From Erpobdella octoculata (Eukaryota; Annelida; Clitellata; Hirudinida; Erpobdellidae), in the NCBI GenBank assembly GCA_963978895.1, contig OZ022244.1, forward strand, positions 2,956,432-3,020,431: a DNA stretch of 64,000 bases, read 5' to 3'. Shown one piece after another: positions 14,246 to 55,319 of this stretch. A program made the position numbers and the translations under genes. The notes under the pieces were generated by a model. The model searched no databases, was not told the DNA's origin, and saw only the letters and a list, made by a program, of their open reading frames with translations. Every line of letters starts with the position of its first letter. Position 1 is the stretch's first letter.

Positions 14246-14283
14246 AAAACACCACTGACCGAAAGATCACAACAGCATAAATA
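14246..14283 (+). promoter_or_regulatory. Two-box module with SINE inserted 24 bp downstream
   Basis: CACCACTGACCGAAAG, then CATAAATA at 14,276; spacing 26 bp. The target duplication AAAGGTTTGC (14,298-14,307) ends 24 bp past the TATA box and is followed by a SINE. Confidence 0.55.
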
Positions 14284-14307
14284 ACCGATGTTATTCTAAA
14301 GGTTTGC

Positions 14308-14495
14308 TCAACTCTGCCTCGCTAATTGCGAGCCAGTCCCAAGCCTGGAGAAAGGAGGAGGGAAAAGTAAGAAGGATCAAATTCTGATTCACGACAGGAA
14401 GTGCTTTAGTCTAGAATTCCTACATACAGCCATTAGAGTCTTAAAACACTTGGTGTAAAGGACTATAAACTATTATAAAAAAAAAAAAAAAAAAT
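14308..14495 (+). mobile_element. SINE-like retroposon (family S), copy 1
   Basis: Starts TCAACTCTGCCTCGCTAATT, contains GCGAGCCAGTCCCAAGCC and GGAGAAAGGAGGAGGG, and ends CTATAAACTATTATA plus an A-run. It is flanked by the 10-bp duplication AAAGGTTTGC at 14,298 and 14,496. The matching position in duplicate copy 2 (near 39,590) has one AAAGGTTTGC and no SINE, so it inserted after the block duplicated. No Pol III A or B box recognised. Confidence 0.85.
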
Positions 14496-14620
14496 AAAGG
14501 TTTGCGTGCGTTTATCAATTTTTTCAGTTTAAGTACTTGTTTATCAGCGATTACAACTTCTTGTCATTTTAGGGCTATAATTGTTAGTCGATTCGATCAA
14601 AGAGAATTGTTTCATATTGT

Positions 14621-15105
14621 TTAATTTTATAAGATAAATCTTTAATTTTATAAGATAAATCTTTAATTTTATAAGATAAATCTTTAATTTTATAAGATAA
14701 ATCTTTAATTTTATAAGATAAATCTTTAATTTTATAAGATAAATCTTTAATTTTATAAGATAAATCTTTAATTTTATAAGATAAATCTTTAATTTTATAA
14801 GATAAATCTTTAATTTTATAAGATAAATCTTTAATTTTATAAGATAAATCTTTAATTTTATAAGATAAATCTTTAATTTTATAAGATAAATCTTTAATTT
14901 TATAAGATAAATCTTTAATTTTATAAGATAAATCTTTAATTTTATAAGATAAATCTTTAATTTTATAAGATAAATCTTTAATTTTATAAGATAAATCTTT
15001 AATTTTATAAGATAAATCTTTAATTTTATAAGATAAATCTTTAATTTTATAAGATAAATCTTTAATTTTATAAGATAAATCTTTAATTTTATAAGATAAA
15101 TCTTT
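14621..15105. repeat. 21-bp minisatellite, 23 units
   Basis: Unit TTAATTTTATAAGATAAATCT, nearly invariant. The minus-strand frame is open because 21 is divisible by three and the unit lacks stops; it reads KDLSYKI over and over, which I take as coincidental rather than a protein. The related locus at 18,747 has a single unit and the duplicate at 39,713 has 13. Confidence 0.97.
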
Positions 15106-15583
15106 CAAGCGTGCGACTTCACAACTTTCGATGGTACGTGATTTGCCTACTATAGGGTAACGGATAATCAGGATTCGATTCCGTAGAGGAAGTATGAGAC
15201 ACGGCTACCATATTAAAGGAAGGCAGCAGGCGCGCAAATTACTCATTCCAAATTCAGGGAGGTAGTGGCAAAAAATAACCATTAGCTAAGCAATTACAGT
15301 TGCTGTATTAAGCTTTTTTAAATCGTCAATTACGGACGCTTTTGTGTTGAAGTGATAAAAAATCGCAACTCACTGTCTAATTCAATCCAAACCTAATTTT
15401 CTTTTTAAATTAATTAAATAGTTAATTAAATAGTTCTTGGTGCAGCGGCTGTGCTCCAAGTTTATCTTCAGATTTAAAAATAAGACACGCATATAATAAT
15501 TTTCAATGTTTTCACAGAAATTATAATTTATTATTTGCAAAAGTATATATAATTATATTTTATCATTATTTGAAGAACTTAGC

Positions 15584-15621
15584 AAATCACTCCAGATTCA
15601 AAACAACAAAAATCATAAATA
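15584..15621 (+). promoter_or_regulatory. Two-box module, altered first box
   Basis: CACTCCAGATTCAAAA, then CATAAATA at 15,614; spacing 26 bp even though the first box has lost CACCACTG. A sister copy at 19,220-19,257 also has 26 bp. Confidence 0.4.
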
Positions 15622-17502
15622 ATTTCAATACATATTTGGATACTTTGAATAATAATTTGGATAACTCAGCAACTCATGCATTCTTGTGATATGCAATAAT
15701 GTGCATTAAAATAATTCCAAATGTCTGAAACAAATAAACATAATTCTATTAGATTCATTCAATGCTGGTTTAGGTTTTTGCAATTAAATTTTCCACATTT
15801 GAAAAAATGTGTTTTCAATGTTCGTTTTGAAAATGTTGTTTCATCACAACAACGATACGTTATGAAAACAACTTTAATAGGAAACACAACACACCATTCA
15901 ACAAACCAGTCACAGGATAAAAAAAAACAATGACATCATCCATTGTTAAACATGTTTTAAACAATCTATAAATTTAAAAAAATAAGGTTTAAAAGCATGA
16001 TAATTGGGGCAAACGGCTAAGAAGTGGTCACAATTTCATGAAATACTACTTATTTGATGTCAGCTTTAGTAATACTTGAATCGAATTATGATTTGATGTT
16101 TCCACAACCCGATTTATAGGGCAAACTACTAGAAGACTATTTGTCGGATGTTTGTTTTTAGTAATAATAGTACAAAAAAACTCAGAGTAAAAACCTTTGG
16201 ATGTGTTTTGTAGTGTTCTTTTCCAAATTGTTTTTATAATAAAAGGCCCGGTTCAATCTATAAATTTAAAATAGAACTACAGGTTAAGGTTTAGTTAAAA
16301 AAATATCATTTTTAGTTATACTCTAAATAATTGGATTTTATGTTTATTGAAACAAAGAAAACGGTTTAGATTTATTTATAATTAACGTGTTTTTATGACC
16401 AGCGATATTTCAGAAATTATTTAATAAAAATATATTTTATGAAAACTAAAATTTAGGAAAAGCAGGATAAGCTCAAGGATTGTTTTGTTCTTTAAAAAGT
16501 CAACAAATAAAAAGTTATAGAAACATTTTGGAAAACTTAACTACCCCTCCTCCGGTTATCTTAAAAGCTTGGTAAATAAAAAAAACATATTTTTCAATTT
16601 TCATTTTTTTATAAACATTTTCTACAGTAGCCAAAAATAGAAAAATAAAACATTAAAGTGATATTCGTTGTCTTCTGCAAATCTTTGGTTATAATAAAAA
16701 TTGTTACTAAAACCAGTTAGGCTTTATAAATAACTAAATAAACGATTTTTAGGGACATAATAGTTAAGAAAATTATACGACTGAACTTGTTATAAAAATC
16801 TCTATCTGACGGTATAGTTTTTTGTCTGTTTTAGTAAATATTTGTAGCGTTATTAGTAAAAAATACAAATTCAATTTTGTTGTTGTGAGCCACTCCTTCG
16901 AGTCGAATTGGCGATATTAGTGAAGAACACGAATTCAGTATTGTTGTTGTGAGTCACTCTTTCGAGTCGAATTGGCAACTGCTACTGCGCAATAGTTGGA
17001 CATGTCGGAATATGAGATAAAACTAACTGATTAAAGTGCTGCTCTGGACTTTCTATACCTCTCTGCCCATGCTGATTACTTGATTACTCCTTTAAACCAA
17101 AGTCGTTTACTTTTAAATGACTCTTTTAAGTCGAAATAGTTTTAAAAAAAAATTTATTGATAGGATCGAGTTTGAAATTTGGATAATATTTCATTAGGAC
17201 AAAAATAATTTCAAAATTCAGTCATAAAACTATTAGAAATGGAAATATGATACTATAATTTGTTGTACATATCACAAAGTTTGAGATAAAATTGAATCCC
17301 TTTTAATTCGTTCATTTTTGTGGTACGTTATATAAATTTGACAGTTGTGTAGCTCTTGTTTGCCACGTTCTGTTTATTAACACAACGTGCCAAAACCAAA
17401 AAACAGCTGAGTTTTTTTTAAATGGCGATTGAATAAAATAGAACTATACCTAAAATTGTGCTTGAGCTACTAGTATTATAAATTGTTTAAACAGAATATC
17501 GG

Positions 17503-17540
17503 AAAACACCACTGACCGAAAGATCACAACAGCATAAATA
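17503..17540 (+). promoter_or_regulatory. Two-box module
   Basis: Same boxes as 14,246, from the internal older duplication. It is followed by GGTTTGCGTGC and then sequence unrelated to that after 14,283, so homology breaks about 35 bp past the TATA box. Confidence 0.5.
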
Positions 17541-17897
17541 ACCGATGTTATTCTAAAGGTTTGCGTGCTTTAGCTAGGACAGTTTTATTTTTGTTATCTT
17601 GTTAGATTTATTGACAGGGCATAACTGCTACTACAAAGTGCTTTAGTCGATAGATGTAAACGTTTAACTTATTAAATGCAATATCAAATAATGAATTTTA
17701 ATTAATGTATCAGCAAGATTACATGCGTAAGTTTCAGTAATCATTTGAATATTGAAAAACAAATTAAGTACCAATATTAAATATGGCATTTTATAAGTTG
17801 CAATTTGTTGAAATAAAAACAAGAATTATGTTTTCAAAGTTGTTTTTGTGTTATTTAATATTTACTATGAAACAAATTTACTAATTATAAATCTTCA

Positions 17898-17935
17898 AAA
17901 ACACCCCTAGTTCAAAGCAACGGATTTAATAAGTA
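17898..17935 (+). promoter_or_regulatory. Two-box module with two stacked SINEs downstream
   Basis: CACCCCTAGTTCAAAG, then AATAAGTA at 17,928; spacing 26 bp. The site TTAGATTGCAG (17,948-17,958) ends 23 bp past the TATA box. Confidence 0.5.
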
Positions 17936-17958
17936 GTGTATAAAAGCTTAGATTGCAG

Positions 17959-18319
17959 AAACTCCGCCTTGTATTTGCAAGCCAGTCCCAAGCCTGGAGA
18001 AAGGAGGAGGGAAAGGTTAAATAGAACAAATTATGATCCAAGAGAGGAAGTACTTAGGTGCTTCCTACATACAGCCATTTCAGTTTTAAAACACCTGGTG
18101 TAAAGGACTATAAACTATTATAAAAAAAAAAAATTAGATTGCAGAACTCCGCCTTGCTAATTGCGAGCCAGTCCCAAGCCTGGAGAAAGGAGGAGGGAAA
18201 AGTTAAAAGGATCAAATTATGATCTACAACAGGAAGTACTTAGCTGCTTCCTACATACAGACATTTCAGTCTTAAAACACATGGTGTAAAGGACTATAAA
18301 CTATTATAAAAAAAAAAAA
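17959..18319 (+). mobile_element. Two SINE-like retroposons (family S) in tandem at one target site
   Basis: The first copy is 17,959-18,133 and the second 18,145-18,319. TTAGATTGCAG occurs before, between and after them (17,948; 18,134; 18,320). This pattern is expected if the second SINE inserted into the target copy left by the first. The copies differ at several positions (TTGTATTTGCAAGCC versus TTGCTAATTGCGAGCC), so they are independent insertions or old duplicates. Confidence 0.85.
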
Positions 18320-18530
18320 TTAGATTGCAGCTGCTTGAAGTGCAAATTTCAAGGAATGAAGCATTATTATTATTAGCATTTGTTGGTCTTAATTTGTAAT
18401 TAATAAATAATATAGCGTCCGAAGTACATATCATTTATGTTCCAATAGCCGGATTAATCGGTTGTGTTTATTTATTGAAATCTGAAATTAATTTATAAGA
18501 ACTTTATACACATTATTTTTTTGAAATTAC

Positions 18531-18567
18531 CAACACCACCAATTAAAAAAAACAAATATTATAAGTA
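18531..18567 (+). promoter_or_regulatory. Degenerate two-box module
   Basis: CACCACCAATTAAAAA, then TATAAGTA at 18,560; spacing 26 bp despite the degraded A-rich middle. Confidence 0.4.
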
Positions 18568-19720
18568 AACTCAAATGATTTAAGTCAGAGCACGTTGACA
18601 AAAGAGTAGATCCTCTTTAGAATAGTAATATATATTTCGTAAATCTATCATTTTAATTCTTTGTTTATCAGCGATTACAACTTTTTGTCATTTGAGGGCT
18701 ATAATCGTTAGTCGATTCGATCAAAGAAGAATTGCTTCATATTGTTTAATTTTATAAGATAAATCTTTCAAGCGTGCGACTTAACAACTTTTGATGGTAC
18801 GTGATTTGCCTACCATAGGGTAACGGATAATCAGGATTTGATTCCGTAGAGGAAGTATGAGACACGGCTACCATATAAAAGAAAAGCAGCAGGCGCGCAA
18901 ATTGCCCATTCTAAATTCAAGGAGGTAGTGGCAAAAAATAACCATTAGCTAAGCAATTACAGTTGCTGTATTAAGCTTTTTTAAATCGTCAATTACGGAC
19001 GCTTTTGTGTTGAAGTGAAAAAAAAATCGCAACTCGCTGTCTAATTCAATCCAAACCTAACTTAAATAGTTCTTGGTGCAGCAACTGTGCTCCAAGTGTG
19101 TCTTCAGATTTAAAGATACGACACGTATATAATAATTTTCAATGTTTTCACAGAAATTATAAATTATTATTTGCAAAAGTATATATAATTATTTTTTATC
19201 ATCATTTGAAGAATTTAGCAAATCACTCCAGATTCAAAACAACAAAAATCATAAATAATTTCAATACATATTTGGATATTTTGAATAATAATTTGGATAC
19301 TCAACTCAACGAATCATGAATTCTTGTGCATTAAAATAATGTATTGATTAGTAGCGTCCAAATGTCTGAAAAGAATAAACACAATTCTATTAGATTCAGT
19401 CAATGCTGGTTTAGGTTTTTGGTCGTCGTTATAAAAATTGCAATTAAATTCTCCACGTTTTTTATTGTTATAACTATTTATGTTTTATGTTTATATTTAT
19501 GTTTAAGTTTTATGTTTTTGTTCCTCCTTTAGAATTTGCTGAATTTTTTTTCATCAGCGCCTCAGTCGTGTTTTTGTTATATGGCGCTTTGCAAATAAAT
19601 AAATAAAAAAAAATTACTAACAAGCTGCAACACAAAAAACCTGTTAAGAACGCTAAACAATTTATTTATTTTGTTTTGTATTTAGTATCACAAATAGGTA
19701 AAAAAAATTAAGACTTTGCA

Positions 19721-19757
19721 AAAACACCACTGACTGTAATGTAATAACTACATAAAA
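19721..19757 (+). promoter_or_regulatory. Two-box module
   Basis: CACCACTGACTGTAAT, then CATAAAAA at 19,751; spacing 26 bp. Confidence 0.45.
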
Positions 19758-20314
19758 AGTGCATAGCTCTGTTGATTGTGAGAAAGGTTCGGGTTCATAT
19801 ATAATTTGCCTAAACCCTTTTCATTATAAATAATAAATATATGAAAGTCGTCTGTGCCGGAGACGGAGCTGGTCGGTTAAAGATCCAGGCTGAGATAGAG
19901 CTATTGAATTTTGTTTTTTAGTAAAAGTGCGCAAATTCTAAAAATTGAAAATTTCTTAACAAATTGCAGACAAATGGCATATGTATAATTAAAAACACAC
20001 TGCGTAAAAAAGCTGCATAATTGTAGGTACTACAAGTTTTGTTTATAAAACTATAAAGAAATTTCTTTACTCCAAAACATTGAAAAATCACCATTATCTT
20101 AACAAAATTCATAATTTTCAAACTTGGAATACATTAGACATGTTTTATTTTTCTATAAAATTAGTTGATCACTCAATGTGCAACAAACCACAATACAAGG
20201 ACAGTTAATCGCTTTCTAACAAACTGTAACAATAGAAACCTGCATAGAATACTAAAAGTTTATTTGTTTTATTTGTTCTAGTGTTAAAAATAAAAATTTG
20301 TTTTATTTATTTGT

Positions 20315-20352
20315 AAAAACACCAATAATTAAAATGCAACAACAACATAAGA
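20315..20352 (+). promoter_or_regulatory. Two-box module
   Basis: CACCAATAATTAAAAT, then CATAAGAA at 20,346; spacing 26 bp. A related weaker copy lies at 20,651 (CAGCACTGAGTCAAGG, TATAACAA, spacing 26), and a degraded one at 20,780 with only about 22 bp. Confidence 0.45.
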
Positions 20353-20869
20353 AGCCACGGCAACCTGTGACAACAGCCAGCGGTTATTAAAATATCACAG
20401 TCTGTTTATTTAAAATATTCCTGTATCTTGCTATATTACCAACTTGGTTTTTGTATTACAAGGATGAATAAAAACGATGAGATAATTTGTTCTTTTATTT
20501 TTTGTAAATGTATTATTACTATTTTATAAAATGTTTTTTTGTACATATATTTTAATTAATAAATTGTTATAAATGAGGTTTTTTTTTAAATTACCGCTTC
20601 TTTAATAAAAAAGGGAAATAGATTTTTCGAATTTATTTTAAAGCCCAATCAAAACAGCACTGAGTCAAGGCAAGCAACCTTATAACAATAAAAATCTTTT
20701 TAGAATACTGAAGAGTTCAATTGTTTTATTTGTTTATAGTGTTAAAAATAAAAATTAAACTTTTCATTTTATTACTTTATTACCCATTGAATTGCAACAA
20801 CTACATAAAAAGCCACACCAACCTGTGCAAGCAGCAACCTGTCTCGTGAAGTGTTTTCTGATTCTGTTT

Positions 20870-21290
20870 TTTAGGCTTCTTTGAGGCGTCGGTGTTGTCG
20901 TACCACTGCACCGTTGGCCTGTGGGTGGTAGGCAGTTACACGTTTTTGTTCATCCACCCCAAGCTTCGCAACTACTTTTTTCAAGAGAAGTGATTTGAAG
21001 TGTGATCTACGATCGGAGATGAGAAGGTCTGATACACCATGTTGAGAGATCCATTACATGAGGGCTGTAAATGCTGCTTCTGCCGTAGCTACAGACGTGG
21101 GGTGAGACGCAAACCATCGTGTTGTTCGATCAAAGATTGTAACAAGATATCGCTTGTTGTTGTTTGGTGGAAGTGGTCCAACAAAATCGATATGTACTGC
21201 AGCAAACTTCTCATGCTGTCCCATATGTTTATATGGTGGCTTAATGTGTTTGGTGATTTTGGTTGCTTGACAATCGCGACATTGCTTCAC
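20870..21290 (-). pseudogene. Ty3/gypsy integrase fragment, copy 1
   Basis: The minus strand reads KQCRDCQATKITKHIKPPYK (the CxxC half of the integrase zinc finger), then HIDFVGPLPPNNNKRYLVTI and FDRTTRW, part of the DDE core with its first Asp. After an in-frame stop near 21,054 it continues with HGVSDLLISDRRSHFKS and VTAYHPQANG, the segment holding the second Asp. The catalytic Glu region is changed or lost. Other copies are at 45,992-46,412 and 61,656-62,060, all with a stop at the same place, so the lesion predates the duplications. Confidence 0.85.
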
Positions 21291-21569
21291 TCGCTGTTTT
21301 TTTTATATTTAGTCATGTTATTAGTGTCTCTGTTTTGCTTTATATTGTTACAAAGTAAGTTATCAAAGTTAAACAACAAATGTGCAAAGCTTATTTAAAT
21401 AAAAGTGATATAAGATAATGATTCATGTGTTTCATATTATTCACTTCTAAACTGTACACAAATTAATTTTAGTCATATTATTGTAATTATAATTAAAAGT
21501 TATTTTTTTGCATTCATTCAAATATTTTATGTTACATTTTTTCATATTTAAATAGATTCTAAATAATAA

Positions 21570-21609
21570 AAAACAACCATTGATTCAAAACAACGATAAC
21601 CATAACTTA
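21570..21609 (+). promoter_or_regulatory. Two-box module, degraded
   Basis: AACCATTGATTCAAAA, then CATAACTT at 21,601; spacing 26 bp. Confidence 0.4.
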
Positions 21610-21974
21610 GATTACCAAAATTTTCCGTTTACACACTCAGTTGTGTTTTGAAAGTTTGGGAAAAAGTTCATTTGTGTGCAGCAATAACTTAAATGCAAAT
21701 TTTATTTCAGCTGTATATATAACAAGTTGATGAAATCATGCATAATTACTGAAGTTCTATTTGAAAAAAAAATATGCAAATTTTTTTTAATGTTTTAGCT
21801 AACCAATAGTTTTGAAATTTTAATATAACTGATAAAACAAATTCATTGTTTTTTTTTAATTTAATTAATTTTTAATTCAAAAACCTTATGATACAGATCT
21901 AATGCAAAAACCCTATCTCTTTACGAAGTCTAGTTTTTAGTTTTTATTTTCCCATACAGATTTTAAATAATAAA

Positions 21975-22012
21975 AAAACACCACTGATTCAAAACGACGA
22001 CAACCATAAGTA
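21975..22012 (+). promoter_or_regulatory. Two-box module with SINE inserted 26 bp downstream
   Basis: CACCACTGATTCAAAA, then CATAAGTA at 22,005; spacing 26 bp. The best match to the family consensus. The target CTAATTTGCGCTT (22,026-22,038) ends 26 bp past the TATA box. Confidence 0.55.
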
Positions 22013-22038
22013 ATCTAACAACCAGCTAATTTGCGCTT

Positions 22039-22196
22039 AACTCCGCCTCGCTAATTGCGAGCCAGTCCCAAGCCTGGAGAAAGGAGGAGGGAAAAGTAAA
22101 AAGGATCAAATTCTGATCCACGACAGGAAGTATTCAAGTGCTTCCTACATACAGTTATTAGAGTCTTAAAACACCTGGTGTAAAGGACTATAAACT

Positions 22197-22235
<39 letters not shown>
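22039..22235 (+). mobile_element. SINE-like retroposon (family S)
   Basis: Starts AACTCCGCCTCGCTAATT and ends in an A-run of more than 30. The 13-bp duplication CTAATTTGCGCTT lies at 22,026 and 22,236. It is absent from duplicate copy 2 (near 47,165), so it inserted after the block duplication. Confidence 0.88.
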
Positions 22236-22237
<2 letters not shown>

Positions 22238-22386
22238 AATTTGCGCTTGCGGTAGCTCTGACGTACTCTCCTTCTCGAGTGGCGTGTTCAAAAAAATTTA
22301 AACGACTAAGATTCTAACATTTTGTTATCTATCGAATTATTTAAGTTACAAGCTAAGAGTCCTGGTTTATTTACTGTAATGGAAAA

Positions 22387-22445
22387 ACTCAGCATCGCCT
22401 AATTTCTTTGGCGAAGTTGTACCACGCAGTTGTCATCAACTTTAA
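22387..22445 (+). repeat. Conserved hairpin-rich block
   Basis: Contains CGCC-TAATTTCTTT-GGCG and GTTGTACCACGCAGTTGTCA. The block is kept with few changes at 47,311-47,371 and 62,958-63,017 while surrounding sequence drifts. It could be a structured RNA or just a young stretch; nothing else supports function. Confidence 0.3.
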
Positions 22446-22663
22446 ATTAAACAACTTTGTATTTCTTAATGTTATTTTGTATTTTAATTAAATTTGAAAA
22501 AGTGTGTTTAAAATAGATGATATACAAATAATAAATTTTAAGAATATTAGTGAATTAGCATACAGTTTGATGATTTAATAAGGAATAGGAATCACCAAGT
22601 AAACCAACCGTTAACTGCAAAGGCGGAGAATAAAACTTATATGTTCATTATAATAATTATTTA

Positions 22664-22957
22664 TCTATAAATGTATTTTTTTGCAGTTCCTTCTACTCTA
22701 CTTTGCAGTACAACATTTGCAATTCTGTTCTTATCCATCCGTAACAGATGTCCTAGCCATTGATGTTGTCTTTGATGTACTCGTTGAACGATTGTTTGGA
22801 TGTGATTGAGAGCCATGTCTTCATTCTTCAACCTGTCCATGATGTGAACTCCTAAAATTTGTGATGTCAAAATGTCAAAGCAATTGACCCAGAATTTTCG
22901 GAAATCATCGATTTGGAACAATCGAAGAGTACCACTTTTATCTAGCACATGATGCAA
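22664..22957 (-). pseudogene. LINE C-terminal remnant
   Basis: The minus strand reads QRVHQRQHQWLGHLLRMDKN and RIANVVLQSR, matching the WxGHxxRM-x-RIP segment near the C-terminus of RTE/L1-like LINE proteins. It lacks the RT domain and a start codon of its own. It occurs where copy 1 stops matching copy 2, so it may mark the insertion that ended the homology. Confidence 0.6.
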
Positions 22958-26593: not shown

Positions 26594-26594
26594 A

Positions 26595-27671: not shown

Positions 27672-27674
27672 TAT

Positions 27675-31027: not shown

Positions 31028-31840
31028 CGTTTACATGACGAGTAAGCAAAAAAATGGTTATATTTTAGTTCCAAAGATTTGTCGTTTTACGTTATTACCA
31101 AGAAAATTAAATTTTGTATATATTAAAGCATACAAAACCGCCCTAATAAAATAAAACCAATATTTTAAACTCTAGCAAAACACCACTAGTTACAAAAGAA
31201 CAGACTTTATAAATGAAAAGAAAACCAGGTAGCTGCCGCTTGCAGTTAAAATATGAACACAACTTGGTGACGCATTGAGAAATTTTGGTACTCCGTAGCT
31301 GTGTCTATTTTTGTCAGTAAAACTTATTCTAACAAAACATGTCTCATTTTTGCACAAAATCAATCAAAAAACTCAAATTAATCCTCAAAACGATGGAATC
31401 TAGAAAGAAAACTTTGAATTAATTCAAATTACAAGGTTCAAATATTAGTAAAGTCAAAGTCAAAGTGCTAAAGCATAAAAAAGAAAAATAGTTTCGCAAT
31501 ATGGCAAAATATATATAATAAATTATTGACAATGTGAAGGAGGGTCCCCATTTTAATTTTAAAAGGGCCTGGGTCCCCAGTTACTTTATCTATATATAAA
31601 TTTATACAAAACTACGGATGTATGTTTGGTTGAAACAACAACCAAGTAGTACTAAACTACAATTTTTTAAATTAAAAAGAAACATAAAAATTACTAGCTT
31701 AATGATAAACATAGAAAGTAATAGTATTTTAATTTTAATTTAAATGATTTTTCGTTTTACGTTATTACAAAGAAAATTAAAATGTCCATATATTTATATA
31801 TAGCCCTATTAAAATAAAACAATTTTTTTGAAACTCCAGC
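31028..31840. other. AT-rich spacer
   Basis: No gene. One two-box module at 31,177. The segments around 31,080-31,260 and 31,640-31,860 resemble each other and 4,440-4,640 (TTTTCGTTTTACGTTATTA, AAACTCxAGCAA), remains of an old tandem unit. Confidence 0.45.
31177..31214 (+). promoter_or_regulatory. Two-box module
   Basis: CACCACTAGTTACAAA, then TATAAATG at 31,208; spacing 27 bp, one of the few not at 26. GCTGCCGCTTGCAGTT follows downstream. Confidence 0.4.
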
Positions 31841-31865
31841 AACAAACCACTTGTTCAAGAAAACA

Positions 31866-31910
31866 GAATGTATGTATGTATGTATGTATGTATGTATGTA
31901 TGTATGTATG
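31866..31910. repeat. (TATG)n microsatellite inside a two-box module site
   Basis: The module AACAAACCACTTGTTCAAGA (31,841) is followed directly by GAATG(TATG)n where the TATA box should be; the array ends at a family S SINE. The microsatellite grew at, or was brought to, the same site. Confidence 0.8.
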
Positions 31911-32086
31911 AACTCCGCCTCGCTAATTGCGAGCCAGTCCCAAGCCTGGATAAAGGAGGAGGGACAGTTAAAAGGATCAAACTTTGATCCACGACGGGAA
32001 GTACTTATGTGCTTCCTACATACAGCCAATTCAGTCTTAAAACACTTGGTGTAAAGGACTATAAACTATAATAAAAAAAAAAAAAA
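31911..32086 (+). mobile_element. SINE-like retroposon (family S)
   Basis: AACTCCGCCTCGCTAATT to CTATAATA plus an A-run, inserted in a TATG array that continues after it (ATGTATGTATG on both sides). Confidence 0.85.
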
Positions 32087-32142: not shown

Positions 32143-32202
32143 TTAGCAAATTTGCACAACGCGATGGCCGCGGTGGTCAGCAGTCAGCAGTTGCTAAAAT
32201 TA
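32143..32202 (-). repeat. Family M repeat, first part
   Basis: Preceded by TGTATG microsatellite; reads TTAGCAAATTTGCACAACGC and GTGGTCAGCAGTCAGCAGTT on the plus strand. It is interrupted at GTTGCTAAAATTA by the LINE fragment 32,203-32,575 and resumes at 32,589. Confidence 0.7.
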
Positions 32203-32575
32203 TTATTTTTTTTTATTATAGTTTATAGTCTTTTACACCATGTGTTTTAAGACGCGAAAACAAAATCAAAATGAAAAAAATACTTATTTACACTAAATAA
32301 TTTTTCTCTATATTTACAGTTCTTTAGGATTATTTTGTATCCATTTATAGATGATGTCGTGGCATATTTCCGAGTTCAGTATGGTTTGGAGTGTAGTTGG
32401 TTTTTGGATCCTTTTACAAAAGTTCCCAAGTTCCATTCCTAGTTGTGTCGTTTCTTTGCAGTGCAGCAACCAGTGCTCGATTGTTTCCTCTGTTCCGCAG
32501 GTTTCGCACAAACCTGTCGCATGAAGATTCATTCTCTTCAAATTTTGTTTCAGCCGACACTTTCCAAGTAGCTGT
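32203..32575 (-). mobile_element. 5'-truncated LINE with C-terminal zinc knuckle; 3' tail shared with family S SINE
   Basis: On the minus strand about 90 codons remain, ending in a stop near 32,314. They contain GLCETCGTEETIEHWLLHCK, the CxxC-H-C knuckle typical of the C-terminus of I/R1/jockey-group LINEs. A 3' UTR follows, ending GTCTTAAAACACATGGTGTA, AAGACTATAAACTATAATA and an A-run. The last 45-50 bp match the end of the family S SINE. The insertion has a 13-bp duplication, GTTGCTAAAATTA, at 32,190 and 32,576. It is therefore a genuine target-primed insertion and the likely mobilising partner type. Confidence 0.85.
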
Positions 32576-32631
32576 GTTGCTAAAATTAGTGCGCGCAGAC
32601 GTGTTATAAAAGTTATATGCATGTGTGTATG

Positions 32632-39573: not shown

Positions 39574-39712
39574 ACCGATGTTATTCTAAAGGTTTGCGTG
39601 CGTTTATCAATTTTTTCAGTTTAAGTACTTGTTTATCAGCGATTACAACTTCTTGTCATTTTAGGGCTATAATTGTTAGTCGATTCGATCAAAGAGAATT
39701 GTTTTATATTGT

Positions 39713-42382: not shown

Positions 42383-42420
42383 AAAACACCACTGACCGAA
42401 AGATCACAACAGCATAAATA
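42383..42420 (+). promoter_or_regulatory. Two-box module (pair of 17,503)
   Basis: CACCACTGACCGAAAG, then CATAAATA; spacing 26 bp. Confidence 0.5.
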
Positions 42421-42776
42421 ACCGATGTTATTCTAAAGGTTTGCGTGCTTTAGCTAGGACAGTTTTATTTTTGTTATCTTGTTAGATTTATTGACAGGGC
42501 ATAACTGCTACTACAAAGTGCTTTAGTCGATAGATGTAAACGTTTAACTTATTAAATGCAATATCAAATAATGAATTTTAATTAATGTATCAGCAAGATT
42601 ACATGCGTAAGTTTCAGTAATCATTTGAATATTGAAAAACAAATTAAGTACCAATATTAAATATGGCATTTTATAAGTTGCAATTTGTTGAAATAAAAAC
42701 AAGAATTATGTTTTCAAAGTTGTTTTTGTGTTATTTAATATTTACTATGAAACAAATTTACTAATTATAAATCTTC

Positions 42777-42815
42777 AAAAACACCCCTAGTTCAAAGCAA
42801 CGGATTTAATAAGTA
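42777..42815 (+). promoter_or_regulatory. Two-box module with three stacked SINEs (pair of 17,898)
   Basis: CACCCCTAGTTCAAAG, then AATAAGTA. TTAGATTGCAG at 42,828-42,838 ends 23-24 bp past the TATA box. Confidence 0.5.
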
Positions 42816-42838
42816 GTGTATAAAAGCTTAGATTGCAG

Positions 42839-43027
42839 AACATAGAAAAAGTAAGGTGATCTGGGTAGAAGAACTCCGCCTCGCTAATTGCGAGCCAGTC
42901 CAAAGCCTGGAGAAAGGAGGAGGGAAAAGTAAAAAAGATCAAATTCTGATCCACGACAGGAAGTACATAAGTGCTCCCTACATACAGCCATTAGTCTTAA
43001 AACACCTGGTGTAAAGGACTATAAACT

Positions 43028-43071
<44 letters not shown>

Positions 43072-43439
43072 AGATTGCAGAAACTCCGCCTTGTATTTGC
43101 AAGCCAGTCCCAAGCCTGGAGAAAGGAGGAGGGAAAGGTTAAATAGAACAAATTATGATCCAAGAGAGGAAGTACTTAGGTGCTTCCTACATACAGCCAT
43201 TTCAGTTTTAAAACACCTGGTGTAAAGGACTATAAACTATTATAAAAAAAAAAAATTAGATTGCAGAACTCCGCCTTGCTAATTGCGAGCCAGTCCCAAG
43301 CCTGGAGAAAGGAGGAGGGAAAAGTTAAAAGGATCAAATTATGATCTACAACAGGAAGTACTTAGCTGCTTCCTACATACAGACATTTCAGTCTTAAAAC
43401 ACATGGTGTAAAGGACTATAAACTATTATAAAAAAAAAA
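42839..43439 (+). mobile_element. Three SINE-like retroposons (family S) stacked at one target site
   Basis: Copies 42,839-43,069, 43,081-43,255 and 43,267-43,439 are separated and flanked by TTAGATTGCAG (42,828; 43,070; 43,256; 43,440). The first is absent from block copy 1 and so is younger. It carries about 33 extra bases at its 5' end (ACATAGAAAAAGTAAGG, then GATCTGGGTAGAAG) before AACTCCGCC. This shows that the source element is longer than the usual copy. Confidence 0.88.
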
Positions 43440-45991: not shown

Positions 45992-46412
45992 TTTAGGCTT
46001 CTTTGAGGCGTCGGTGTTGTCGTACCACTGCACCGTTGGCCTGTGGGTGGTAGGCAGTTACACGTTTTTGTTCATCCACCCCAAGCTTCGCAACTACTTT
46101 TTTCAAGAGAAGTGATTTGAAGTGTGATCTACGATCGGAGATGAGAAGGTCTGATACACCATGTTGAGAGATCCATTACATGAGGGCTGTAAATGCTGCT
46201 TCTGCCGTAGCTACAGACGTGGGGTGAGACGCAAACCATCGTGTTGTTCGATCAAAGATTGTAACAAGATATCGCTTGTTGTTGTTTGGTGGAAGTGGTC
46301 CAACAAAATCGATATGTACTGCAGCAAACTTCTCATGCTGTCCCATATGTTTATATGGTGGCTTAATGTGTTTGGTGATTTTGGTTGCTTGACAATCGCG
46401 ACATTGCTTCAC
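45992..46412 (-). pseudogene. Ty3/gypsy integrase fragment, copy 2
   Basis: Same 78-residue frame and same stop as the copy at 20,870-21,290; carried by the block duplication. Confidence 0.85.
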
Positions 46413-47110
46413 TCGCTGTTTTTTTTATATTTAGTCATGTTATTAGTGTCTCTGTTTTGCTTTATATTGTTACAAAGTAAGTTATCAAAGTTAAACAACA
46501 AATGTGCAAAGCTTATTTAAATAAAAGTGATATAAGATAATGATTCATGTGTTTCATATTATTCACTTCTAAACTGTACACAAATTAATTTTAGTCATAT
46601 TATTGTAATTATAATTAAAAGTTATTTTTTTGCATTCATTCAAATATTTTATGTTACATTTTTTCATATTTAAATAGATTCTAAATAATAAAAAACAACC
46701 ATTGATTCAAAACAACGATAACCATAACTTAGATTACCAAAATTTTCCGTTTACACACTCAGTTGTGTTTTGAAAGTTTGGGAAAAAGTTCATTTGTGTG
46801 CAGCAATAACTTGAATGCAAATTTTATTTCAGCTGTATATATAACAAGTTGATGAAATCATGCATAATTACTGAAGTTCTATTTGAAAAAAACATCAGCA
46901 AATTTTTTGGCCCGTCATATTTTAATGTTTTAGCAAACAAATAGTTTTGTAATTTTAATATAACTGATAAAACGAATTCATTATTTTTTTTTAATTTAAT
47001 TAATTTTTAATTCAAAAACCTTATGATACAGATCTAATGCAAAAAACCCTATCTCTTTACGGAGTCTAGCTTTTAGTTTTTATTTTCCCATACAGATTTT
47101 AAATTATAAA

Positions 47111-47148
47111 AAAACACCACTGATTCAAAACGACGACAACCATAAGTA
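47111..47148 (+). promoter_or_regulatory. Two-box module (pair of 21,975, no SINE, divergent downstream)
   Basis: CACCACTGATTCAAAA, then CATAAGTA at 47,141; spacing 26 bp. Downstream reads CTAATTTGCGATCGCG and diverges from its pair for about 45 bp before homology returns at GCGTGTTCAAA. Confidence 0.55.
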
Positions 47149-47961
47149 ATCTAACAATCATCTAATTTGCGATCGCGTTTAGTCTAACAGGATTTCCATA
47201 TCGGAAAGCGTGTTCAAAAAAAATTTAAACGTATAAGATTCTAACATTTTTTTATCTATCGTATTATTTAAGTTTCAAACTAAGAGTCCTGGTTTATTTA
47301 TTGTAATAGAAAAACTCAGCAACGCCTAATTTCTTTGGCGAAGTTGTACCACGCAGTTGTCAACAACTTTAAATTAAACAACTTTGTATTTCTTAATGTA
47401 ATTTTGTATTTTAATTAAATTTGAAAAGTGTGTTTAAAATAGATGATATACAAATAATAAATTTTAAGAATATTAGTGAATTAGTATACAGTTTGATGAT
47501 TTAATAAGGAATAGGAATCACCAAGTAAACCAACCGTTAACATTAAAGGCGGAGATTAAAACATTGTTGGTGTTTTTAATTATATGTTCATTGTAATAAT
47601 TATTTAGCTGTAATCACAATAATATTATAAATTTAATGATCCAAATAGTTTTTTTTTAATTTTTTCAATTCAAACTTTGACAAATTGTACATTCATTTGA
47701 CATGTAGTAACACCGATAGCTCATACATATCACAAAGTTTTAGATAAAATTGAATCCCTTTTAATTCATTCATTTTTGTGGTACGTTATATAAATTTGAC
47801 AGTTGAGTAGCTCTTGTTTGCCACGTTCTGTTTATTAACACAACGTGCCAAAAGCAAAAAAACAGCTGAGTTTTTTTAAATGGCGATTGAATAAAATAGA
47901 ACTACACTTAAAATTGTGCTTGTGCTACTAGTATTATAAATTGTTTAAAACAGTGTATCGG

Positions 47962-47999: not shown

Positions 48000-48639
48000 A
48001 CCGATGTTAATATAAAGATCTGCGTGCGTTAATTAAGAGAGGGCATAATTGGTAGTATAAAATGCTTTAGTCGATAGAAGTAGGCGTTTAACTTATTAAA
48101 TGCAATATCAAATAATTAATTTTAATTAATGTATCAGCAAGATTACATGCGTAAGTTTTAGTAATCTTTTAAATATTGAAAAACAAATTAAGTACCAATA
48201 TTAAATATGGCATTTTATAAGTTGCAATTTTTGAAATAAAAACAAGAATTATGTTTTCAAAGTTGTTTTTGTGATATTTACTATGAAACAAATTCACTAA
48301 TTATGAATCTTCAAAAACACCCCTAGTTCAAAGCAACGGATTTAATAAGTGATGTATAAAAGCTTAGATTGCAGCTGCTTGAAGTGCAAAACTCAAGGAA
48401 TGAAGCATTATTATTATTAGTATTTGTTGGTCTTAATTTGTAATTAATAAATAATATAGCGTCCGAAGTACATATCATTTATGTGCCAATAGCCGGATTA
48501 ATCGGCTGTGTTTATTTATTGAAATCTGAAATTAATTTATAAGAACTTTATACACATTATTTTTTTGAAATTACCAACACACCACCAATTTAAAAAAAAA
48601 ACTAATATTAAAAGGAAACTCAAATGATTTCAGGCCAAA

Positions 48640-50269: not shown

Positions 50270-50692
50270 TGTAACGGTTGTTACTAATTTTTACTAATTC
50301 GTAAATAATTATTTTTATTTTTTTTATTATTTATTTTTTTTTATCTGGGGTGTTAAATTAAATATCTATTATTTTATCTTTTATTTCTATGTTATGTGAC
50401 GATATGACGGATTTGTTTTTAAAAGATTATGATATTAGCTGTGTGCTTCGTGCTTTGCTTCGTGCTAATAAATTGTAGCTGTGTGCTTAGTGCTTTGCTT
50501 TGTGCTATTAAATTATTGTTTCGTGCTTCGTGCCTGACTTCGTGCTAAGTTGTTGATTTGATTTCTCTGTGTGTTGTACCTTGGGAGCTGATAAAGTTTG
50601 TGGGTACCTCAGAACTTGTGGTGTCTAAATAAATAAGAACCTGAACGCCGGCTCCTGTTGAAGATTTTCCTCATCGGACAACCGACGTTACA
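50270..50692 (+). mobile_element. GypC 5' LTR
   Basis: TGTAACGGTTG to CCGACGTTACA. Contains internal near-repeats of GTGCTTxGTGCTTTGCTT and AATAAATAAG near the 3' part. Confidence 0.95.
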
Positions 50693-50696
50693 TTTC

Positions 50697-50715
50697 TGGC
50701 GCAGTCGACAGGATC
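50697..50715 (+). other. GypC primer-binding site, tRNA-Ser type
   Basis: TGGCGCAGTCGACAGGATC, four bases after the LTR. TGGCGCAGTCG complements the 3' end of animal tRNA-Ser, the primer type known from 17.6/297-like gypsy elements. Confidence 0.7.
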
Positions 50716-50884
50716 AGCATCAACATCGCTGATCTTCATCACAAGGAACGGGCCTACTCAACCAAAGTCTCGCCAAAGAATCAAGGAAATTTTCTGTGTG
50801 GATTCTGTTAGTTTTTTTTTTTTTGATCATTAGGAAGTTATTGTCAGTGCTGTAGGTTAGTGATCAATTAAGGTAGTTAGGATA

Positions 50885-52918
50885 ATGAATACACCGATAT
50901 CAATAGTGATGGAGAAAGGCTCATGGATTGATTCTGAAAATGAATCGCAGGGAGAGGAGTCGCCAGGAAGGCGTAAAATAAATTTTACAGGAGTATTAGA
51001 TAGTGCGGACGCCAAAAGAATACAATACGAGAGAGATTTAGCGGAGAGGATAAGACAGGAGGAGCGTGAGGACCGCGAAGAGAAAGAAAGAGAGGAGCGT
51101 GAGGACCGCGAAGAAAAAGAAAGAGAGGATCGGAAGATGCATATAAGATTGGCCGAGATAGAGAACGCAAAGAATGTGGCGGAGATTAAAGGGTGGTTTT
51201 CAGTAGTAAATAACGTCCGGGAAGAAACCCTTTTAACTCCCGAGGTAGTCATAAAGAACCTAAGCTTTACAAGAGTATTAGAAAGTGCGGACGCCGAAAG
51301 AATACAGTACGAGAGAGATTTAGCAGAGAGGATAAGACAAGAGGAGATAGAAGACCGCGAAGAGAAAGAAAGAGAGGATCGGAAAATGCATTTAAGATTA
51401 GCCGAGATAGAGAGCGCAAAGAATGTGAAGTTGGCGGAAATTAAAGGGTGGTTTGCAGTAGTAAATAACGTCCGGGAAGAAACCCTTTTAACTCCTAGCG
51501 TAGTCAAAAGAATCCAAGCGTTGGAATCTTTCGAAATGATTACAGCTAGCGCTGCAACCATAGATATAGAAAAGGACGGCGGCACGTCGCCAACAGATGT
51601 TGAAATTGTAAGGCCAGACAATACGAACGAGACGATTCAGGACATTATGCCGGTACAAAGCGGCCCGGCCTCGGCGGATCCAACCCACTTCCGCCAGGAA
51701 ACATTGGCAACATTGGGTATGGACGATATCTTAGCCAAACAAGTTGAACAACTCGAGAAAGAAAAGAAAGAGAAAGAGGCAAAATTGCAAGCTCAAGAGA
51801 GGCAGGTTGATTACTTCGAGGAGGCACAACGTATAGAAGAAATTCCTTTGCTGTTGGAAACATACGAGATAGATAAGGTAGCTAATAAGAGCTACTGGGA
51901 AGAAAATGAAATCGAAAGGGTTAACAGAATAAAGAAAAAGAGACAACTGGTACTCTCGCGACAGAGCAGGCTTAAGAAAATTAAAGCTGATACTGAAGAG
52001 TTCTTAGCGAGACGCAGAGAAAAATTTAAACCAGCACGCAAAGAAGAGCCAGTAAAAGAAGATAGCTGGAGAAGAAATGGAAGAGAAGAAAAAGATACAA
52101 GAAGAGTAGGCGAGGACAGGGCTTTCCATGACCAAAAAGACAAAAGAGGATTTAAAGATGAAGCGGACAGATGTGGTCCCAGTGTTGAGAGTGAGAACTG
52201 GGCACCTAGAAAAGAGAAAATCATATCAGATGAGAGAGGTCCCAAAGACGAGAGAAGCCTCCATAAGTTGAGACTCGTTCAAACGACGCGAGACATAAGA
52301 AGTATCATTGTTTATTTTAGTTATTTTCGAGGATTTATTCCACAATTTGCAGAGGTAGCTGGGGTCATCATCAACTTAATGCGGGGTGGAAAAAACCAAA
52401 AGGTAGAATGGCTGGACATACATGAAGAGGCGCTGAACAAGCTAAAAAGACTCCTAGTAGAATCCGTCACCCTCTACACAATTGACTACCAACGAGAGTT
52501 TGGTTTGGCTGTCGATGCAAGCGCGGGAGGCGTTGGATGCTGCCTCTTCCAGTGGAACGCGAACCGAGAGGAACAACCCATCGCCTTTGCCAGTGCTAAA
52601 CTCAGTGACACACAACAAAGATGGGCAACCATCGAAAGAGAAGCCTATGCTGTGGTGTGGGCTCTCCAAAAGTTCAAAGGGTGGTTGCTGCTTTCACAGG
52701 TCACGGTCTTCTCCGACCATAATCCCCTTACGTTTCTAACGGAAGTATCGACAAAAAGTTCAAAACTTACAAGATGGGCCCTTGCACTTCAAGAGTTTGA
52801 TCTTCAGTTCAAGTACCGGGCGGGACGAACCAACATTCCTGCCGATTTCATGTCACGGTCCATAGAAGACGACGGCGCTGAGGTTCCCTCCACAACGATC
52901 AAGAAAACTATACAATAA
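50885..52918 (+). CDS. GypC fused ORF: charged Gag-like region plus RT connection and RNase H (677 aa)
   Basis: Residues 1-450 are highly charged coiled coil and hold a tandem duplication. About 34-110 (FTGVLDSADAKRIQYERD to REETLLTPEVV) repeats as 127-205 (FTRVLESADAERIQYERD to REETLLTPSVV). From about 464 the RT thumb/connection begins (IIVYFSYFRGFIPQFAEVAG). RNase H follows, with likely catalytic Asp near 542 (GLAVDASAGG), Glu near 583 (TIEREAYAVVWAL) and Asp near 611 (FSDHNPLTFL), then GRTNIPADFMSR. Protease, RT palm and integrase are missing. The frame is uninterrupted and starts at the first ATG after the leader. Confidence 0.92.
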   Translation: MNTPISIVMEKGSWIDSENESQGEESPGRRKINFTGVLDSADAKRIQYERDLAERIRQEEREDREEKEREEREDREEKEREDRKMHIRLAEIENAKNVAEIKGWFSVVNNVREETLLTPEVVIKNLSFTRVLESADAERIQYERDLAERIRQEEIEDREEKEREDRKMHLRLAEIESAKNVKLAEIKGWFAVVNNVREETLLTPSVVKRIQALESFEMITASAATIDIEKDGGTSPTDVEIVRPDNTNETIQDIMPVQSGPASADPTHFRQETLATLGMDDILAKQVEQLEKEKKEKEAKLQAQERQVDYFEEAQRIEEIPLLLETYEIDKVANKSYWEENEIERVNRIKKKRQLVLSRQSRLKKIKADTEEFLARRREKFKPARKEEPVKEDSWRRNGREEKDTRRVGEDRAFHDQKDKRGFKDEADRCGPSVESENWAPRKEKIISDERGPKDERSLHKLRLVQTTRDIRSIIVYFSYFRGFIPQFAEVAGVIINLMRGGKNQKVEWLDIHEEALNKLKRLLVESVTLYTIDYQREFGLAVDASAGGVGCCLFQWNANREEQPIAFASAKLSDTQQRWATIEREAYAVVWALQKFKGWLLLSQVTVFSDHNPLTFLTEVSTKSSKLTRWALALQEFDLQFKYRAGRTNIPADFMSRSIEDDGAEVPSTTIKKTIQ

Positions 52919-52977
52919 TGTAACGTGAGTTACGGGTGTTGATAACATTGCATTCCACCCTTAACTACACTCTTTTT

Positions 52978-52988
52978 GGGTAGGGAGG
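52978..52988 (+). other. GypC polypurine tract
   Basis: GGGTAGGGAGG directly before the 3' LTR. Confidence 0.75.
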
Positions 52989-53411
52989 TGTAACGGTTGT
53001 TACTAATTTTTACTAATTCGTAAATAATTATTTTTATTTTTTTTATTATTTATTTTTTTTTATCTGGGGTGTTAAATTAAATATCTATTATTTTATCTTT
53101 TATTTCTATGTTATGTGACGATATGACGGATTTGTTTTTAAAAGATTATGATATTAGCTGTGTGCTTCGTGCTTTGCTTCGTGCTAATAAATTGTAGCTG
53201 TGTGCTTAGTGCTTTGCTTTGTGCTATTAAATTATTGTTTCGTGCTTCGTGCCTGACTTCGTGCTAAGTTGTTGATTTGATTTCTCTGTGTGTTGTACCT
53301 TGGGAGCTGATAAAGTTTGTGGGTACCTCAGAACTTGTGGTGTCTAAATAAATAAGAACCTGAACGCCGGCTCCTGTTGAAGATTTTCCTCATCGGACAA
53401 CCGACGTTACA
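52989..53411 (+). mobile_element. GypC 3' LTR
   Basis: Same 423 bp as the 5' LTR; I found no difference by eye. Followed by the target duplication ACTGT. Confidence 0.95.
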
Positions 53412-53914
53412 ACTGTTTTGGTAAATTTTTTTTTAACTTTCAATATAATGCCATGTTATGAGCAGCAAGTCTATATTTTCAAATTTCAGCTCGATTGGAT
53501 AACAGGAAGTTAGTTAATTTTTACTTACTTTCAAGGTTTGCAAACATTAAAGCAAGCAAGCGATTAAACAAACAAATGGGTTTTTTATCGGTTTTCTCTT
53601 TTGTTTTTTTCTGTTTTATTTTCTTTTCCTTGCTTGCTCTCGTTTTTTCCTCATCTTTTGCGCTTTCTTGCTTTTCCTTGCTCTCCCATTTCGCTTGATA
53701 ATGTAACAAAGGGAAACATCAAAGCTGAACAAACATTGTGGAAAGTCTGTTTAAGTAAAGCTGCTATAATGTTATGATTAATGTGTTTTAAATAAATCTT
53801 AGCTGTATTAAATTAATTTTGATTACATTTTTGTACTTATAAAAAAGCGTTAAATTAATAAATCCATTAAAGCACTTTATATTGGTTTTATTTGACCATT
53901 ATGGGAAAAATCTG

Positions 53915-53953
53915 AAAACACCACTGATTCTAAAACGACAAAAACTATTAGTA
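53915..53953 (+). promoter_or_regulatory. Two-box module
   Basis: CACCACTGATTCTAAA, then TATTAGTA at 53,946; spacing 26-27 bp. Followed by CTAATTTGAGCTCGCCG. Confidence 0.45.
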
Positions 53954-54717
53954 TCTTAACAATCAAACTAATTTGAGCTCGCCGTTCTAGCCAAAAAAAA
54001 AACAGAAAGCTCATATTAAACTGTCGTTTCTACAGTATGACTGCCTTATTAGGCGCGAGTTTCACAATATTATTTGTCTACAAGTTATGTTCTATTGAAA
54101 ACGGCTTCGAATGTCTAAAACAAATTCATATTGAAATGATGTTTGATTATAATTTAATGTTTTAAAGAAAACGTAGCCAGTTTTTAATTTTTAAAAATTG
54201 GTGTTTTTCAGACTACAAAAAATTGTTATTGAAAAGAGTAATTAATTTTAATCATCAATATATTTGTTTATTTATTAAAATCAAAAATGAAATTATCAGA
54301 ATTTTAATAACAATAGTTTTGAGAATTACCAGCACACCACCAAATTAAAATAAAAAATATCATAACTAAACTCAAATGATTTAAGTCATCTTTAGAATAG
54401 TAATACTCATATTCTAAATGTATTATTTTAATTATACTTGTCTTACGAATTTGAGTATCAGCGATTTATTAAAAAGCATTAATCATCAGTTGATTTAATC
54501 AGAGAGACATGCTTCCTATTATTCAATTTCCATGTGTGTGCCCTAACAACTTTTGATGGTACACGACTTGCGTACCATGGTCATAACGGGTAACGGAAAA
54601 TTAGGATTCGATTCCCTAAAAGTGGCATGAAATACGGTTACTACATTCAATAGTTTTACATTTTTTTAAGTATTTTATGTTTAATTTTTAATTATTATAA
54701 ACATAATCTAAATATTA

Positions 54718-54756
54718 AAAAACACCACTGATTCAAAACGACGATAACCATAAGTA
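54718..54756 (+). promoter_or_regulatory. Two-box module with SINE inserted 24 bp downstream
   Basis: CACCACTGATTCAAAA, then CATAAGTA at 54,749; spacing 26 bp. CTGATCTGCGC (54,770-54,780) precedes the SINE. Confidence 0.55.
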
Positions 54757-54780
54757 ATCCAACAACTATCTGATCTGCGC

Positions 54781-54939
54781 GAACTCCGCCTCGCTTATTG
54801 CGAGCCAGTCCCAAGCCTGGAGAAAGGAGGAGGGAAAAGTAAAAAGGATCAAATTCTGATCCACGACAGGAAGTACTTAAGTGGTTCCTACATACAGCCA
54901 TTAGAGTCTTAAAACACATGGTGTAAAGGACTATAAACT

Positions 54940-54975
<36 letters not shown>
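54781..54975 (+). mobile_element. SINE-like retroposon (family S)
   Basis: GAACTCCGCCTCGCTTATT to an A-run. Flanked by CTGATCTGCGC and CTGATTTGCGC (one mismatch). The site is outside the large duplication, so this is an independent use of the same target position. Confidence 0.88.
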
Positions 54976-54977
<2 letters not shown>

Positions 54978-55319
54978 GATTTGCGCTTGTGGTCCTAAGT
55001 GATCCAAACGAAACTATATTTAACATTATATAATTTGTACGGTTCTGTATCGTGTGTAATTATAAAGCAAAATGTAAAATGTCCACTGTTATAAAGCCAT
55101 TTTTGAACGAAAAGTAAATAAAACTTGCTATAAGAAGCATAGAAAAATGTTTCGCGCTTAATAAACAAAATTTATTTGGTTTTCATTTCAGGTTTCTTTT
55201 TAACTCCATTTTAAAATAAAAATTACTTTTTGTGACTGTTTTAGGTGGCAGACTTGAATTTTGTTGACGGTGTCTGCCTCTGTTGATCCTTATGACCCAT
55301 AAACCAGACATTGAAGTTA

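Follow-up and report, generated by a model that had tools for sequence, protein, structure and literature searches.

The 64,000-nucleotide stretch of the annelid Erpobdella octoculata considered here (the window; assembly GCA_963978895.1, contig OZ022244.1, positions 2,956,432 to 3,020,431 of the forward strand) appears to carry an array of small-RNA-type genes. Forty-nine plus-strand modules, each pairing a candidate proximal sequence element (PSE) with a TATA-like box, span positions 3623-63920 of the window. Downstream of such two-box modules lie nine sense copies of a short repeat family, S, recovered by BLAST and motif extraction in agreement with an earlier note on this DNA. S is best explained as a short non-autonomous retroposon composed of a 5' head that is a twister-like ribozyme, a body of some 70 nt, a 3' tail of about 40 nt of the type carried by a long interspersed nuclear element (LINE), and poly-A. 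Within the window it has evidently inserted repeatedly at one position of the PSE/TATA modules.

A PSE-like 22-mer served to locate the modules, at a threshold of 9 bits; it had been refined from eight seeds, of which S occupies three. The scan returns 52 matches on the plus strand and 14 on the minus strand (48 and 0, respectively, above 18 bits), against 0-11 per strand in ten runs of a Markov null. Three overlapping weaker plus-strand matches (4529, 12512, 37805) are left out of the 49 modules, as are the 14 minus-strand matches, which reach 17.0 bits compared with 16.4 for the weakest module kept. The best TATA-like octamer lies exactly at PSE+31 in 40 of the 49 modules (22 of 25 non-redundant ones) versus 4% at random sites, and a GC-rich block, GCnnGYGGT, starts 30 bp after the first TATA base in the non-redundant set. 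Modules 17897, 42777 and 48313 have their best-scoring octamer at PSE+42 (TATAAAAG); AATAAGTA/G at the usual PSE+31 was used instead. The PSE of the modules, ACACCACTGA, bears a loose likeness by eye to the mammalian consensus TYACCNTAAC; PSEs diverge between phyla. In described PSE/TATA promoters the TATA box lies near -30 and the putative start 29 bp after the TATA start (PMC3509611). The geometry of the modules agrees with that of a type 3 promoter, with the PSE about 31-36 bp before the TATA box and the predicted start about 29-30 bp after the TATA start. The modules would be promoters, presumably read by RNA polymerase III (Pol III).

Rfam matches across the whole window are limited to twister, 18S-like and microsatellite hits. 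Short Pol III transcripts ending at T-runs were considered as products and found no support, since T-runs lie no closer to the modules than background. Degenerate 18S rRNA-like fragments lie downstream of some modules (15031-15266, 18691-18935, 39913-40148 and 43813-44057, with another seen by eye at 54520-54650). In about four of 19 paralogous module pairs, profiled without the pairs that carry S, the sequence just past the expected start is much more diverged than the promoter; such pairs include 10521-10600 with 35418-35500 and 47141-47220 with 62788-62870, with downstream versus promoter differences of, for example, 11/52 versus 7/115 and 14/59 versus 4/114. The remaining pairs have no clear effect.

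The nine copies of S, all on the plus strand, have bodies of 162-168 bp followed by a tail of 9-36 A. The first copy (14310..14477) follows a module at 14245..14283 with the TATA-like box CATAAATA at 14276. Two more (17960..18122 and 18145..18308) form a stack on the module at 17897..17935, where AATAAGTA at 17928 was assigned by spacing and TATAAAAG also occurs at 17939. The copy at 22039..22202 follows the module at 21974..22012 (CATAAGTA at 22005), and the copy nearest the family consensus, 54782..54945, follows the module at 54718..54756 (CATAAGTA at 54749). A second stack stands on the module at 42777..42815, itself a copy of module 17897: it holds 42872..43033, with a tail of 36 A, and then 43082..43244 and 43267..43430, whose bodies are identical to those of 17960 and 18145. 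The ninth copy, 31911..32073, lies within a TATG array behind a PSE-like module (31840..31910); as the earlier note had it, this array sets the copy off from its module, and it stands in place of the TATA box. Seven copies are unique, with pairwise differences of 4-14%.

Insertion falls at a nearly constant position. At the five sites that adjoin a module (14310, 17960, 22039, 42872 and 54782) the target-site duplication (TSD) starts at PSE+51 or +52, a figure independent of which TATA box is chosen. Counted from the first TATA base, the TSD starts at +20 or +21, with the body of S beginning at +32 to +34 (for 42872, a leader at +31), and the spacing given earlier for these sites, 23-26 bp after the TATA box, holds when counted from the end of the 8-base box. 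The TSD spans +20/21 to +30/33, or from about -10 to +3 relative to the predicted start, and the G at +30, the expected +1, is retained at all four distinct sites. All the duplications that the earlier note called clear are recovered: TAAAGGTTTGC at 14297..14307, with its 3' copy after the A tail; TTAGATTGCAG at 17948..17958; CTAATTTGCGCTT at 22026..22038; and CTGATCTGCGC at 54770..54780, which with its 3' copy CTGATTTGCGC gives CTGATYTGCGC with one mismatch. The stacking of 18145, 43082 (43081 in that note) and 43267 on a single site is likewise borne out, as TTAGATTGCAG flanks each stacked copy and is reused by every member. In the block B stack, at 42828, the copy without a counterpart in block A has the longest A tail (36) and adjoins the module, which is what a repeated hit on one site would produce. 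Other mobile elements in the window served as controls (the element at 50270-53411, two tRNA-type short interspersed nuclear elements (SINEs) and a LINE at 55.9-60.1 kb). Their ends, placed approximately, all fall outside the range 15-40 bp past a module TATA, and the control end nearest to any module TATA, at 63872, lies 41 bp before one.

The blocks in question, A (8000-22700) and B (32900-47650), are 97.7% identical over 14,000 aligned columns. Seven indels of at least 15 bp separate them: three are S insertions at the start position, and the other four lie away from any module TATA. Gap placement puts the three insertions at +19 to +21, and their TSDs at +20/21. Copies 14310 and 22039 are confined to block A and 42872 to block B. 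Natural empty sites are present for each: the module at 39535..39573 matches that of 14310, the modules at 47110..47148 and 62757 match that of 22039, and block A, which has the stack without 42872, preserves the empty-site state for that copy. The module at 48313..48351, matching 17897 and 42777, is an empty site for the whole stack. The earlier note was correct that block-specific insertions with empty-site controls exist, but counted two where there are three (14310, 22039, 42872). These three are the cleanest events, being at different modules, later than the duplication, and matched by natural sites without them. In all, the nine copies amount to six or seven insertion events, as 43082 and 43267 are block-duplicate copies. 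A random insertion would fall 18-24 bp past a same-strand module TATA with a chance of 0.0027; for a 7-bp range picked after looking at the data, three of three post-duplication events give p=2e-8 under uniform insertion, and six of seven events give p=3e-15 when 17960 and 18145 are counted separately. With three differing insertions at three different modules, the window supports the earlier proposal that S docks where PSE/TATA modules are predicted to start transcription.

The 5' end of S resembles a self-cleaving ribozyme. Its first 53 nt match the Rfam family RF03160, twister-P1, beginning at the expected cleavage product AAC (54782..54834 in the copy nearest the consensus, plus strand; the domain takes up the first 52-53 nt of all nine copies). 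A cmscan of one S copy reports twister-P1 at E 2.9e-10, and a search of the whole window matches twister in all nine copies (45.6-57.8 bits, E 2e-10 to 7e-7). At E 0.01 or better the whole window gives ten other matches: seven, in microsatellites, to a microRNA family, and three in 18S-like fragments. Stem P1 is missing or incomplete: two or three of its four pairs are non-standard in the five full-length alignments listed, and 54782 and 42872 align without it. Because of this, and because P1 is dispensable in vitro (PMC5408937), the head is named twister-like. Without P1, twister ribozymes are described as cleaving almost as fast as the wild type, and even one nucleotide can be taken off (PMC5408937); truncated but competent twisters are mentioned at RTE 5' ends as work "in preparation" (PMC7761336). 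HDV-like (hepatitis delta virus) and hammerhead folds were considered by eye only and dropped once Rfam reported twister.

With pseudoknot positions assigned from the twister description in PMC5408937, stems P2, P3 and P4 and pseudoknots T1 and T2 can form in 124 of 125 cells across the seven unique copies, the sole unpaired cell being C31-G51 in copy 42872. P3 shows one C-G, U-G, U-A series among these copies. The ribozyme region is also less variable than the rest of S (9/371 versus 56/805 differences, gaps counted; p=0.0014). AAC lies 0-2 nt after the TSD in seven of the nine copies; 31911 is ambiguous and 42872 has a leader. A twister-like head could explain the constant 5' end of S and why an internal promoter may be unneeded.

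Copy 42872 departs from the family in two respects at once. It is the only copy with a leader, 33 nt between the TSD and the S body (42839..42871, plus strand), and the only copy with a broken ribozyme pair, a change of C31 to A in the core that breaks T1 pair 31-51. A sense copy of S is indeed present where it had been placed, at 42,839, although that position marks the start of the leader and the body begins at 42872. The leader has no convincing match elsewhere in the window, and derivation from the transcript of another module was set aside on the same ground. The copy looks as a failure to trim would look, in this one case; the mutation could be later.

S has the marks of a SINE in being short and non-coding, with an A tail and TSDs of 11-13 bp where unambiguous. 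A tRNA-type internal Pol III promoter was sought in S. The top B-box candidate does not exceed what shuffled sequences give (P=0.52), and the top A-box candidate (P=0.08) is on its 3' side, whereas such a promoter has the A box first. This fits the earlier description of S as having no recognisable promoter. A tRNA search of the window, run with bacterial settings, found none, and an origin of S from tRNA or 5S is unsupported by that search and by the box shuffles. TTTT is absent from six of the seven unique copies, which is taken to favor transcription through S, although 36% of GC-matched stretches of the window lack it too. The exact S pattern has 0 matches in viral contigs, the 3'-tail pattern has 0 in prokaryote genome contigs, and S was not found in phage records.

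A further SINE trait is a 3' end held in common with a LINE. On the minus strand, a LINE copy truncated at its 5' end (32200..32576; TSD 32577-32588) encodes a zf-RVT zinc-finger C terminus (E 3.7e-6) and shares its 3' end with the final 40 nt of S. Four of the seven unique S copies are identical to it at 36-38 of 40 positions and the other three at 40-41 of 45; these figures cover the body only, and a 54-nt BLAST match contains 14 nt of A tail. The LINE-matching 3' end and the twister-like 5' end were both overlooked in the earlier reading. On the strand of the LINE fragment, the TATAA of TATAACAC precedes the start of the fragment's TSD by exactly 20 bp; TATAA at an offset of 20 or 21 is expected at 0.9% of positions by chance. 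As no kept module lies within 300 bp, this hint of like targeting is only suggestive. No full-length partner LINE was found, and six pattern matches to the LINE C terminus in viral contigs yielded none that was confirmed.

It seems reasonably probable that LINE machinery places S at small nuclear RNA (snRNA)-type promoter starts, and that S is transcribed there and trims its own 5' end. Favoring this account, the block-specific insertions all lie at +20/21, and 54782 and the older stack have the same offset; further support comes from the nine twister matches, the nearly complete pairing, the low variation of the head and the common LINE tail. The machinery, perhaps that of the zf-RVT LINE with the common 3' tail, would nick DNA at assembled snRNA-type initiation complexes, so that targeting would act through the complex rather than through sequence. 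Transcription from the host promoter would begin 2-4 nt ahead of S. The ribozyme would cut off the short leader to leave an RNA starting exactly at AAC, and this RNA would be reverse-transcribed into the next start site. A more elaborate version can be offered tentatively, and we would sooner doubt it than assert it: promoterless S would be placed by its LINE partner in the initiation bubble of snRNA-type promoters, a leader of GCUU, GCG, GCUC or GA ahead of AAC would be removed in each cycle by the P1-less twister so that the exact 5' end is regained, and new copies would push older ones downstream, so that a fresh copy always holds the promoter.

Several observations weigh against this account. 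The TSD sequences resemble one another (TTTGC, ATTGCAG), which confounds sequence with position. Copy 31911 does not match the exact spacing, with S at +40 from the expected TATA start and an ambiguous TSD; microsatellite growth after insertion could explain the offset, which is a guess. The TATA box of modules 17897 and 42777 was chosen by spacing, not by best score. The first TTTT downstream of the 49 modules lies at a median of 62 nt versus 48 nt for background. All twister scores fall below the curated gathering cut-off of 67.2, and a shuffle control for covariation is not significant (145/500) with so few sequences. The link between leader and mutation has n=1, and the coincidence is expected 1 time in 7 by chance among the unique copies. 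By the PSE scan the LINE fragment has no module, lying 329 and 365 bp from module TATAs.

The alternative that survives best, which we judge unlikely yet to be taken seriously, is a sequence-specific retroposon whose LINE endonuclease would read approximately YTRATTTGCG at module starts, with ribozyme trimming kept and no role for a transcription complex. TTTGC is present at three of the four target sites (in at least one TSD copy) and ATTGCAG at the fourth, and NeSL- and SLACS-type elements are specific for RNA genes. The same is described for Utopia (PMC4640811). Against this, TTTGCG occurs 35 times on the two strands, and subtracting nine at modules and three in 3' TSD copies leaves 23 unoccupied off-module sites, small numbers as these are. 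TTAGATTGCAG also occurs at 55890, without a module and unoccupied, and the nick keeps a constant offset whereas the bases around it vary between sites. The unoccupied off-module sites weakly favor position over sequence.

It is distinctly improbable that the 5' domain of S is an inactive RTE-type relic, its constant ends arising simply because the promoter sets where the RNA begins and reverse transcription runs through to that end. The deficient P1 and the sub-threshold scores would suit a relic, and S would in any case begin just 2-4 nt past the predicted start. A relic should then show leaders of 2-4 nt, whereas AAC stands 0-2 nt from the TSD in seven of nine copies; the reduced variation of the domain (p=0.0014), the leader retained by the core-broken copy and the report of truncated competent twisters at RTE 5' ends (PMC7761336) also count against it.

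Spread of one or two founding module-plus-S units by segmental duplication or gene conversion, which the earlier note had named as what would refute its proposal, is very improbable and is excluded as a full explanation because three insertions, at three modules, differ between near-identical blocks. Block duplication does account for two of the nine copies (43082, 43267), 17960 and 18145 could stem from an old tandem duplication, and the insertions at modules 21974 and 54718, close paralogues (92% over 290 bp including S), might share an origin. At least three events already contradict such a spread, however, the seven unique copies are 4-14% apart with TSDs that differ between sites, and the 21974/54718 megablast match stops with the module and TSD region.

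The window holds several other repeats. A perfect 21-bp tandem array differs in length between the duplicate blocks (14620-15105, 23.1 copies, versus 39712-39987, 13.1 copies). The element at 50270-53411 is probably a recent long terminal repeat (LTR) element, judging by two 423-bp direct repeats, 100% identical, around an RNase H-type open frame. At 55990-60073 lies a non-LTR element with an open endonuclease/reverse transcriptase frame of 1038-1039 amino acids, flanked by ACAT and ATAC arrays; its reverse transcriptase has 391 relatives in a protein search. A SINE-like repeat at 63645-63882, called tRNA-type by eye, is 87% identical to one at about 35.73-35.94 kb and ends 10 bp before a PSE; neither copy stands at a module start.

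The nearest relatives of S in kind appear to be LINEs with a 5' ribozyme, together with elements that target Pol III genes, for example TRE5 and Ty3. NeSL, SLACS/CZAR and Keno are non-LTR elements that sit in small-RNA genes by means of a sequence-specific endonuclease; they and Utopia differ from S in that they insert inside conserved RNA sequence, and we know of no ribozyme-headed SINE among the four. RTE elements, to our knowledge, are without the zf-RVT zinc finger. Utopia resembles S as a non-LTR element tied to small-RNA genes (PMC4640811). The truncated twisters of RTE-superfamily LINEs resemble the S head as truncated motifs at a retroposon 5' end, with a proposed role in 5' processing of upstream transcripts (PMC7761336); unlike those LINEs, S is about 164 nt, non-coding, has a zf-RVT-LINE tail and lies at promoter starts. 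Pr77/L1TcRz of trypanosomatids, found in LINEs, SINEs and SIDERs, is likewise a 5' self-cleaving ribozyme common to a LINE and a SINE, and shares with S a link to transcription, there through SNAP50/TBP; it differs in that the ribozyme is HDV-like and Pr77 is itself a promoter (PMC8190864), whereas S appears just behind a host PSE/TATA-type promoter.

Among Pol III-targeted elements, TRE5, TRE3 and NLTR of dictyostelids are non-LTR elements like S, and target Pol III genes (PMC5911963). The second open reading frame (ORF) of TRE5 and TRE3 combines APE (apurinic endonuclease), reverse transcriptase and zinc finger, and the TRE5-A ORF1 protein contacts TFIIIB subunits (PMC5911963). TRE5 and TRE3 insert tens of bp from tRNA or 5S genes and NLTR-A 2-6 bp upstream (PMC5911963), whereas S occupies the predicted start of PSE/TATA modules in sense orientation. 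Ty3 inserts at the Pol III start site with TFIIIB as targeting factor; it is an LTR element with an integrase (PMC5911963), in contrast to the variable 11-13 bp TSDs and A tail of S, which are as in target-primed reverse transcription. Neither a twister-headed SINE nor a SINE at PSE/TATA starts is described among the matches listed from open-licence PMC text, taken as titles and the starts of abstracts.

If the favored account is correct, S would join promoter capture by targeted insertion with ribozyme trimming of the RNA 5' end, and would answer how a SINE without an internal promoter keeps an exact 5' end. The family would also offer a natural test of twister function, in that ribozyme-dead copies should carry leaders, and would imply that non-LTR machinery can target PSE/TATA promoters. 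S would then be a parasite, one that may exploit promoters of its host and trim the end of the RNA made from it.

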